Virus record (IMG/VR): IMGVR_UViG_3300030450_000508
Location: 1 to 20,476 of that record
Origin: a virus
DNA: 20,476 bases
Reading direction: 5' to 3' (one strand)
Shown here: positions 1,604-9,162 of the stretch, piece after piece
Numbering within the stretch: the stretch's first letter is position 1
Layout of the letters: every line of letters starts with the position of its first letter
Program-made: the position numbers and the translations under genes
Notes under the pieces: generated by a model
What the model saw: the letters and a program-made list of their open reading frames with translations, nothing else
What the model was told of the DNA's origin: nothing
The model's database searches: none

Positions 1604-1662
1604 ATAGCTGCCTAATTAAGCAATGGTCATCAGCTTACTCCTCACACTAAGGCAGTTTTTTT
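1604..1662 (+). ncRNA. Yfr1-like small RNA with intrinsic terminator
   Basis: Positions 1637-1647 are ACTCCTCACAC, exactly the invariant single-stranded core of the cyanobacterial regulatory RNA Yfr1 (from memory of the family). Around it, TAAGC (1617-1621) pairs with GCTTA (1633-1637), and CTGCCT (1608-1613) pairs with AGGCAG (1650-1655), followed by seven Ts (1656-1662). The core is therefore left unpaired between an inner stem and the 3' arm of the terminator stem. Canonical Yfr1 uses two separate hairpins flanking the core, so this nested layout is a variant. The RNA would be about 55-60 nt, close to Yfr1. The T-tract ends 3 nt before the ATG at 1666, so it could alternatively act as a leader attenuator for that operon. 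Confidence 0.6.
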
Positions 1663-2871: not shown

Positions 2872-3449
2872 TTGTCCTACTGATTCCTATAAAACCATCT
2901 TTAGCTTCGACCACAATTGCCTCGCCTCAATCGCAAAATACCGGGGTAGTTAATAATAATGCCACCATGATAACCCCGTCAGCCATGCCATCTTACAGAA
3001 TGAGTCAGGGTATAGTTTGTGCTTCTCCTAGTCTTACTATCACTCCATATTTAACCGATAGTTGGTCTTTCGCACTACCTAAAGAATCAATCACTAGAAC
3101 ACCAATTTATGATGAAGAGACAGGAGAGGTTATATATTATTCAGAAATACCTAGATTTGAAAAAGATAATTTCAATTTAAACTATGGGATCTCTGCACAA
3201 CTTAATATTCCGTTAGGCAAGTCACCTGCTCTTTGTCATAAAGCAACTGAAGTAAATATAAAAAATCAAGAATTGCTGTACAAAAAATTAGCGATGGAAG
3301 TTAGCTTATATCGTTTAAAAATATGTGCAGAGCAAGCAAAACTTGGAGCTACTTTTAAACCTAATACTCCTAGTGCTATTACCTGTGAAGATATTGTTGT
3401 TAATATTCCGCCAAATCAAGTTATCCCACACAGTCACAAATTAAAATAG
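2700..3449 (+). CDS. Exported/anchored protein with helical C-terminus; start unresolved
   Basis: Convincing coding sequence begins at about 2859 with a signal-peptide-like stretch, LWAVVVLLIPIKPSLAS, which parallels the LWLLVLLALPIRTLA signal of the preceding gene. It runs to TAG 3447-3449. There is no ATG or GTG in frame near that point. The only upstream starts are TTG at 2700 and CTG at 2733, and starting there adds about 54 Ser/Asn/Arg-rich residues that look like an out-of-frame reading of the overlapping gene. The mature part has a beta-rich half (YGISAQLNIPLG) and a helical, Cys-containing end (YKKLAMEVSLYRLKICAEQA). From memory it resembles an unnamed family in marine picocyanobacteria and their phages. 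Recoding, a non-standard start or a sequence error are all possible. Confidence 0.65.
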   Translation: MDFTKLRSYTSLVNIKRWSSLFSSRNSNNPRARHSNHYNSSNKYKHNHRNYNYLWAVVVLLIPIKPSLASTTIASPQSQNTGVVNNNATMITPSAMPSYRMSQGIVCASPSLTITPYLTDSWSFALPKESITRTPIYDEETGEVIYYSEIPRFEKDNFNLNYGISAQLNIPLGKSPALCHKATEVNIKNQELLYKKLAMEVSLYRLKICAEQAKLGATFKPNTPSAITCEDIVVNIPPNQVIPHSHKLK

Positions 3450-3480
3450 ACAAGCCACGGGCTGTGGTAAGACTTGTCTA
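3447..3480 (+). other. Palindrome A: nested hairpin starting in a stop codon
   Basis: TAGACAAG (3447-3454) pairs perfectly with CTTGTCTA (3473-3480), and the interior CCAC (3455-3458) pairs with GTGG (3464-3467) directly on top of it. The first three bases are the stop codon of the preceding ORF. There is no T-tract, so a simple intrinsic terminator is unlikely. The stem is equally possible on either strand. Confidence 0.7.
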
Positions 3481-3483
3481 AAG

Positions 3484-3541
3484 AAGCAAAAGCTCGCCCT
3501 TAACTAGGGAGTGTTAGCTGTGGTTAAAAGTTCTTTTGCTT
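3484..3541 (+). other. Palindrome B: 9-bp stem enclosing smaller hairpins
   Basis: AAGCAAAAG (3484-3492) pairs perfectly with CTTTTGCTT (3533-3541). Inside, CCCT (3497-3500) pairs with AGGG (3506-3509), or alternatively TTAAC (3500-3504) with GTTAA (3523-3527). It follows palindrome A after 3 nt. Confidence 0.65.
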
Positions 3542-3543
3542 AA

Positions 3544-3611
3544 TAAGCAACTGACGCTCTGACAGTGAGGAGGTAGAACTTAATCTACTCTTTATCAGGT
3601 CTGGTTGCTTA
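3544..3611 (+). other. Palindrome C: 8-bp stem with inner hairpins and Yfr1-complementary octamer
   Basis: TAAGCAAC (3544-3551) pairs with GTTGCTTA (3604-3611). Inside, GTAGA (3573-3577) pairs with TCTAC (3584-3588), and CTC (3557-3559) can pair with GAG (3567-3569). Positions 3565-3572 read GTGAGGAG, complementary to 8 nt of the Yfr1-like core at 1637-1647. It was tested by eye as a tRNA and rejected: there is no T-arm TTC and the anticodon-arm loop has 6 nt. Confidence 0.65.
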
Positions 3612-3615
3612 AAAG

Positions 3616-3697
3616 TATTCCGTCATCAAGCAATCAATAACAAAGTTATTAATCCAGTCTTTTCTCAAATACCCGCAAAGGTATTAATGACAGAATA
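3616..3697 (+). other. Palindrome D: three-way junction with 11-position outer stem
   Basis: TATTCCGTCAT (3616-3626) pairs with ATGACAGAATA (3687-3697) at 10 of 11 positions. Inside are two perfect 6-bp hairpins: AATAAC/GTTATT (3636-3641, 3645-3650, loop AAA) and AATACC/GGTATT (3668-3673, 3680-3685, loop CGCAAA). Together they form a clean three-way junction. This is the best-formed fold in the intergenic region. Confidence 0.7.
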
Positions 3698-3750
3698 ACA
3701 ACTGTCGACTAGGGGTTTTAATCCTAACGTCTTCTCATTATGGAGCGACC

Positions 3751-7686: not shown

Positions 7687-9162
7687 TTACCCTGCTTCGA
7701 GGGCTGTGACTTTTGCTGACAATTCCTGTACCGCTTTTACTAATATCGGAACAAATTTTCCATAGGATGCTTCTAATTTTTCTGGATTGGATTTATAAAC
7801 CGCACCGATATAATCATTTTTATCACCCAAAGCCGCATCTATTTCTTGCGCAATAAAACCAAGTTCTGTTTTTCCATCGTTGTCACTAGGTTCACGCATT
7901 GCCCAAGTAAATTTTCTTGGTCTAAGTGCATTAATGATATCAAGTCCATCTTCTGAATCAATAATATCTGTCTTATCTCTTTCATCAGAAAGAGCACTGA
8001 TTGTTTGAACTTGACAACGAATTGCAGAAATACTTGAATTACCAAGAGTTACTTCATTAGTCGCTGTAGCAGAAGAAGGATCTGCCTGATAACCAAGAGA
8101 TGTGTTGTTATCTCCAGTTGTTATAACATCACCAGCAGCGGAACCTAGAGCAGTATTGTTTGAACCAGAAACGGATTGTGATAAAGCAAGATGTCCAACT
8201 GCAGTGTTATTACCTGATGTTTGGCTTAATCCTAATGCACTAAGACCCACTGCCGTATTGTTAATGCCTTCAGTGTTACTACTTAAAGAAGTTCTTCCAT
8301 ATGCTGTGTTTGCATTTCCTGTAGTATTTGATTGTAACGACCCCCTACCAAAAGCACTATTTTCTGAACCTGTAGTGTTTGCTCCCAATGCGTCAAAACC
8401 CAGCGCTGAATTATCATCTGCCGTAGTACTAACATCTAAAGCACCAGAACCCACGGCAGTGTTGTTAGTTCCATCTGTATTAGCACCCAAACTGTTATAA
8501 CCCACAGCGGTATTATTACTGGCACTGGTGTTTGCATCTAAAGCATTTGCTCCTAAAGCTGTGTTAGATGCTCCAGTTGTGTTTGCTGCTAATGCTAGTT
8601 TTCCAACCGCAGTATTGTTAGATGCAGTTGTAGCAACATTTAATGCTGCGTGACCTACGGCTGTGTTGTTATGACCAGTAGTGCTGGTAGTTAAAGCACC
8701 TTGTCCCACAGCAACATTTTCTGTCCCTGAAGTATTAGCAGCTAAGGCATGTCCACCTAAAGCTGTATTTGATGCTCCACTTGTATTAGCCGTTAATGTG
8801 CTTATACCAATAGCGGTGTTATTTCCACCAGAAACAGAAGCATCTAAAGCACCCTCTCCAAGAACAGTGTTACCAGCAACAGAGTTTGCTCCTTTACCAA
8901 TATTAATTGAATTTATCGTTCCATCAATAGGAAATGCTGGCCCACCAGCTAATGTAAATAAATTTAAGAAAGCATTATTTGATGTATTTCTAAGTTGCAT
9001 CATACTTGTAGAAGTATTAGCAAAAAAACCACTTGCAAAGGTTGTACTTGCAGCCGAGGAACCAGAATTATTTGTTGCTATCGCTTGTAAAACAGTATTT
9101 ATATCAGCCCTGACGTTAGCACCCGTCGAGTTGTCTATTGTATAATCTGAAGCCTGTGCCAT
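7687..9162 (-). CDS. Tail fibre with 17-residue repeats and C-terminal S74 self-cleaving chaperone
   Basis: 491 residues in three parts. Residues 1-97 form the N-terminal attachment region. Residues 98 to about 366 are sixteen head-to-tail copies of a 17-residue unit with core NTAVGxxALxxNTTG, in perfect register. Residues 391-491 form an intramolecular chaperone of the endosialidase/peptidase S74 type: SDERDKTDI with Ser392 and Lys397 as the presumed catalytic dyad, then ALRPRKFTW, LGFIAQEID and a final trimerising helix (LVKAVQELSAKVTALEAG). In the family this domain folds the trimer and then cuts itself off before the Ser. The repeats should build a trimeric left-handed beta-roll stalk. 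A TATA-like box lies 22 nt upstream. + strand ORFs at 8102 and 8681 are repeat shadows. Confidence 0.92.
   Translation of the reverse strand: MAQASDYTIDNSTGANVRADINTVLQAIATNNSGSSAASTTFASGFFANTSTSMMQLRNTSNNAFLNLFTLAGGPAFPIDGTINSINIGKGANSVAGNTVLGEGALDASVSGGNNTAIGISTLTANTSGASNTALGGHALAANTSGTENVAVGQGALTTSTTGHNNTAVGHAALNVATTASNNTAVGKLALAANTTGASNTALGANALDANTSASNNTAVGYNSLGANTDGTNNTAVGSGALDVSTTADDNSALGFDALGANTTGSENSAFGRGSLQSNTTGNANTAYGRTSLSSNTEGINNTAVGLSALGLSQTSGNNTAVGHLALSQSVSGSNNTALGSAAGDVITTGDNNTSLGYQADPSSATATNEVTLGNSSISAIRCQVQTISALSDERDKTDIIDSEDGLDIINALRPRKFTWAMREPSDNDGKTELGFIAQEIDAALGDKNDYIGAVYKSNPEKLEASYGKFVPILVKAVQELSAKVTALEAG
8065..8871 (-). repeat. Sixteen-copy 51-bp coding tandem repeat
   Basis: The core Asn falls at residues 98, 115, 132 and so on to 353 of the fibre protein, every 17 residues without slippage, which is 51 nt at DNA level. 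Copies have diverged at third positions and at the variable residues but keep NTAxG and AL. These are protein repeats inside an ORF, not a CRISPR array. Confidence 0.9.

Follow-up and report, generated by a model that had tools for sequence, protein, structure and literature searches.

A conserved, structured RNA element of Prochlorococcus phages carries the seed of the host small RNAs Yfr1 and Yfr10

An intergenic element at positions 1604–1662 (plus strand) of a 20,476-base virus record (IMGVR_UViG_3300030450_000508, positions 1–20,476, the whole of which is called the window here) is, by comparative analysis, a conserved, covarying RNA element read from the plus strand, with a predicted accessible seed identical to that of the host small RNAs Yfr1 and Yfr10. 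We consider it fairly probable that this element is the gene of a trans-acting phage small RNA of about 55–60 nt, which would borrow the Yfr1/Yfr10 seed and find its best partner in host Yfr2-5.

The element lies, as the original prediction stated, in a divergent intergenic gap (1553–1665), whose left edge is a minus-strand gene of 53 aa (1391–1552, phrog_2738/402) and which is followed on the plus strand by a gene of 89 aa (1666–1935, DUF6450; phrog_21865, phrog_721), the product of which matched PF20048 at 28.8 bits (cut-off 25). The extended −10 claimed upstream was located at 1589–1597 (TGCTACATT), with the hexamer TACATT at 1592–1597 and a predicted start near 1604, and it is conserved as TG[CT]TANNTT across 80 RNA-bearing matches at the same slot, some contigs being counted more than once. 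The claimed T-tract was also found, as a terminator-like run of seven T (1656–1662) that is present in most relatives and ends 3 bases before the DUF6450 gene begins. This gene and its relatives are mosaic, with varied middles between a MEDQEEKEG-like start and a KIVDNKDTKVGIK-like end. Elsewhere, the window contains a lambda-like siphovirus tail module and a minus-strand gene (7687–9162) for a 491-aa protein rich in NTAVG-type repeats, one end of which resembles, as judged by eye, a self-cleaving tail-fibre chaperone. A 294-nt non-coding stretch (3447–3740), which opens with the near-palindrome AGACAAGCCACGGGCTGTGGTAAGACTTGTCT, folds far more stably than its shuffles (z −3.33, 0/200) and gave no match by blastn against phage isolates.

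The seed, ACTCCTCACAC, occurs once in the window, at 1637–1647 on the plus strand, and is an exact match to the Yfr1/Yfr10 core that is kept in relatives. One of 100 shuffled windows contained it (mean 0.01 matches), which agrees with the chance of about 1% per such window given beforehand. In the predicted fold, an outer stem, P1 (GCTGCCT, 1607–1613, paired with AGGCAGT, 1650–1656), encloses both the core and an inner hairpin, P2 (TAAGC, 1617–1621, paired with GCTTA, 1633–1637), and the T-tract follows. The loop of P2 (1622–1632) contains a conserved TGGTCA, which is the same in RNA types A, B and C (described below) whatever seed they carry. The core had been described as unpaired between stems; its mean unpaired probability was 0.97 and ten of its bases are predicted to be free, but its first A (1637) is taken up in the closing pair of P2. 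The folding energy was unremarkable when compared with shuffles (z −1.3), so the case for an RNA rests on conservation.

Both stems showed covariation, P1 in the set of all types and P2 in the type A set; the aligned sequences are related, and the following numbers count sequences and not events. All seven pairs of P1 were formed in 18/18 sequences, with double-sided changes at pairs 4–53 (A-U/G-C) and 7–50 (U-A/C-G), and slid controls had 25–52% of cells paired as compared with 85.7%. In the 21 type A sequences, 97.4% of the P2 cells were paired, and pair 14–34 changed on both sides (U-A/A-U) in six. U-G wobbles occur in P1 and P2 where the reverse strand would have A-C, indicating that the RNA is read from the plus strand. 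The window RNA scored 84.7 bits against a covariance model of the element, in the building of which it was included.

By blastn, the intergenic RNA was detected in 17 P-SCSP1 isolates (P-SCSP1a–u, 80%), which are cultured T7-like podoviruses (Autographiviridae) of Prochlorococcus MED4; a DNA polymerase gene is missing from these phages, which are members of clade MPP-C (PMC9860041, PMC10575957). When viral contigs (IMG/VR) were scanned with a pattern, 35 matched, every one in the same slot between a divergent gene of about 54 aa and the DUF6450 gene. The strict type A pattern, CTCCTCACAC-(0-3)-TAAGGCAGTTTT, was absent from 84,980 prokaryote genomes, and we rejected a host origin of the scaffold on this ground. 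The close phages P-HS2/MED4-184 and P-SCSP2 have the slot and lack the RNA, indicating that it is dispensable. A search that fixed P2 and the 3' arm of P1 and left the seed free recovered 48 contigs, which together with loci from the earlier sets gave 31 distinct RNAs. CTCCTCAC was kept in 26 of these and lost in five, while CTCCTCACAC was kept in 24. Seed variants such as ATTCCTCACACAC and TCTTCTCATATAC were mainly C-to-U changes, for which the predicted Yfr2 pairing is weaker yet retained through G-U pairs, and similar changes are described for host Yfr12 (PMC2518516); one RNA form, ATTTTTTACAAATTA, had no seed. The conservation on which the original prediction had staked itself was thus observed, related phages carrying the same core and nested stems.

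We also gathered 160 loci through the two flanking proteins, independently of the RNA, and the slot was found to hold no RNA, type A, B, C/C2 or D, or unrelated sequence. RNA-less slots have a promoter, mostly TG.TAGTAT, and then a short leader. Type A is the carrier of the Yfr1 core, type B is ACTACCC...GCGGTGGTCATC...GGGTAGT, type C/C2 is ACTACCTTA...CAAAG...TGGTCA...CTTTG...ATCCCC...TAAGGTAGT, and type D is ACTACCTA...TAGC...GCTA...TCTCCCCAT...TAGGTAGT. The outer stem and T-rich tail recur in types B–D, which carry other seeds; a search for types C and D in phage isolates gave no match. The core also occurred on other scaffolds in this slot. In L060 and L104 a hairpin presents it in its loop, the arrangement of host Yfr10, and a terminator hairpin comes next; in L060 the loop of this second hairpin is ATCCCCAAC, the type C seed, so that one RNA holds it together with the Yfr1 core. 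In L152 and L360 it is flanked by a hairpin on one side and a strong terminator on the other, which is the layout of Yfr1; here the RNA faces a convergent gene, and even so it reached only 22.5 bits with the Rfam Yfr1 model. The same seed on differing scaffolds in one slot is unlike a chance match.

A C-rich second seed (ATCCCC or CTCCCCAT) was present in relatives of the RNA at loci L061, L121, L124, L129–L133 and L137–L149, and because relatives at the slot keep the scaffold with other C-rich seeds, the scaffold looks like a carrier of exchangeable C-rich seeds. We suggest, tentatively and at close to even chances, that unrelated Prochlorococcus phage families (T7-like podoviruses and siphovirus-like phages) swap a fast-evolving small RNA cassette of this kind, and that the Yfr1/Yfr10 seed, gained in at least three scaffolds at one slot, is a viral mimic acting on the Yfr1–Yfr2 network. 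A core-bearing stretch elsewhere in a phage (L358/L363) was left out of this count, as it is readable as coding, and the match in L359 was treated as chance. In L363 (IMGVR_UViG_3300030389_004810, 1250–1600), the AGACAAGCCACGGGCTGTGGTAAGACTTGTCT palindrome adjoins the core-bearing GGTGGTCATAAACCGACTCCTCACACACAC, for which an 18-aa peptide is an alternative reading, and a terminator-like hairpin comes next.

The window RNA is not Yfr1 by family. No Rfam family matched the window at threshold, the Yfr1 model had no match over the whole record, and the covariance check proposed with the original prediction (RF01116) gave the RNA 12.8 bits (E 4.1), below the cut-off of 38. Yfr1 has two separate stem-loops around an unpaired stretch of 16–20 nt (PMC2190773), while the phage RNA has nested stems, a departure from the canonical form that had been pointed out. 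The description as a Yfr1 variant holds in so far as the RNA is phage-borne, conserved and structured, with an exact, exposed core, and fails on the model score and on the two separate flanking hairpins, which are absent. What the two RNAs share is the undecanucleotide ACUCCUCACAC (its first A being paired in the phage prediction), a similar size (54–69 nt) and a T-tract end. The family of the Yfr2 motif, Cyano-1, gave an antisense match (16.5 bits at a high E-value), which was set aside, since the complementarity of the core to Yfr2 explains it.

The same core also defines host Yfr10/Yfr18 (PMC2518516, PMC6778093), and in the Yfr10 family (Yfr10, Yfr12, Yfr18) a stem presents it in a single-stranded loop (PMC6778093), a layout nearer to that of the phage RNA than Yfr1's. 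In both, ACUCCUCACAC is exposed within a closing stem, conservation of sequence and structure outside the core is poor, and Yfr2 is the partner, by prediction in the phage case. In contrast with its host counterparts, the RNA is phage-encoded and has an extra hairpin between the closing arms, P1 enclosing the core alongside P2 where the host loop holds the core alone; moreover, yfr10 adjoins yfr2 in high-light Prochlorococcus, while the phage gene adjoins DUF6450. The phage RNA may work like a Yfr10-type RNA. The E. coli prophage anti-sRNA AgvB offers a parallel, being a phage small RNA of about 60 nt that imitates a host pairing sequence against a host small RNA, as we infer here, although the host small RNA and the phages are different and an RNA chaperone is not part of our case (PMC12197685). 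CfrI of cyanophage S-PM2 is likewise a cyanophage non-coding RNA, but it is cis-antisense to psbA, measures about 225 nt and has no host small RNA seed (PMC12197685). A literature search that covered few subscription papers returned no report of a Yfr1-type motif in a phage.

In host genomes, a scan recovered canonical Yfr1 (ATGGGGGAAACCCCAT-ACTCCTCACACACTAA-...) in Prochlorococcus and Yfr2 members in all nine genomes tested, most copies with 5' GTGTG(T/A/C)AGGAG. Several of these members had Yfr10 nearby, its core placed in the loop of a hairpin. In MED4, Yfr2 pairs with Yfr1 and Yfr10, blocking their target binding (PMC6778093). Simple two-strand predictions with three Yfr2 members gave −6.4, −9.3 and −8.7 kcal/mol for the window RNA, −10.0, −11.8 and −16.2 kcal/mol for the P-SCSP1a RNA, and −6.8, −9.7 and −13.2 kcal/mol for host Yfr10; Yfr1 was computed at −17.4 to −23.1 kcal/mol, and types B–D, without the core, at +0.4 to −5.7 kcal/mol. 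When the core was shuffled within the window RNA, equal or better energies were obtained in 3, 0 and 16 of 200 trials (the window being better in 197, 200 and 184), so that for one Yfr2 copy the gain was only modest. The phage's own ribosome sites were not favoured as partner, the best reaching −12.7 kcal/mol (P-SCSP1a) as compared with −16.9 kcal/mol for the Yfr2 motif. These calculations point to the host Yfr2 family as the best predicted partner of the phage RNA, with binding like that of host Yfr10.

In the mechanism that we propose, a host-type RNA polymerase would start near 1604 from the extended −10 and stop at the T-tract, and the transcript would fold, as covariation indicates, into an outer stem holding the inner hairpin and the exposed C-rich seed. 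The seed would pair in trans, its best computed partner being 5' GUGUG(U/A/C)AGGAG of host Yfr2-5, and Yfr2 so occupied would leave Yfr1/Yfr10 freed or replaced, which could shift the control of carbon, nitrogen and photosynthesis in infection. According to the modelled pairing, the RNA probably acts as a sponge for Yfr2 or becomes part of the Yfr1/Yfr10 regulon; a seed-bearing phage RNA may soak up Yfr2 or add Yfr10-type activity, and the sequence gives no direction. Counting against this reading are the other seeds of types B–D, the loss of CTCCTCAC in five of the 31 RNAs, the simplicity of the two-strand energies and the dispensability of the RNA in close phages.

Two other roles for the RNA were weighed. 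We doubt, without holding the chance to be slight, that it is a Yfr1/Yfr10 mimic with host mRNAs (such as those of carbon metabolism or the outer membrane that Yfr1 targets), and not Yfr2, as its main targets. Its seed is identical to the host's and pulldowns with Yfr1 and Yfr10 recovered hundreds of mRNAs (PMC6778093), but perfect GTGTGAGGAG occurs just 1–3 times per genome in five host genomes, at least some of these sites being the antisense of yfr10 itself, and in vitro Yfr2 outcompetes an mRNA target (PMC6778093). The start codon of DUF6450 lies a few bases past the T-tract, so a role in cis is also conceivable, as a leader or attenuator in which the outer stem and T-tract govern read-through or initiation and Yfr2, sensing the state of the host, would alter this by binding to the core. 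The same promoter position seems to drive DUF6450 directly in the RNA-less P-HS2-type phages, and AAGG in the outer stem could be a weak ribosome site. However, the type C2 RNAs (L129–L133) abut a convergent gene that separates them from DUF6450, and such free-standing RNAs speak against a pure leader; those of L152/L360 and L140 have no intact adjacent gene to lead, and a leader gives no reason for a Yfr1 seed in three architectures. We regard this reading as unlikely.

Much less probable is a chance 11-mer within an ordinary intrinsic terminator, which would fit the folding energy, no better than shuffles, and the empty Rfam result at threshold, and which is contradicted by the conservation of core and stems, with covariation, across phage families. 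We give next to no weight to the idea that the minus strand encodes a small peptide, with GTGTGAGGAG serving as ribosome site for its gene. Open frames of 19–21 codons follow GTGTGAGGAG in many relatives, but the window frame is only MTIA-stop, the codon differences are 314 non-synonymous to 23 synonymous, and the wobble pairs indicate the plus strand; the first two findings led us to reject it.

If the favoured reading, a trans-acting RNA directed at Yfr2, is true, a phage RNA would act on a near-universal cyanobacterial small RNA circuit for carbon and nitrogen metabolism, in a host, the ocean cyanobacterium Prochlorococcus, that is among the most abundant photosynthetic organisms. The P-SCSP1 isolates infect MED4, a strain for which Yfr1, Yfr2 and Yfr10 assays already exist. 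Such a virus may plug into the RNA-based control network of its host.
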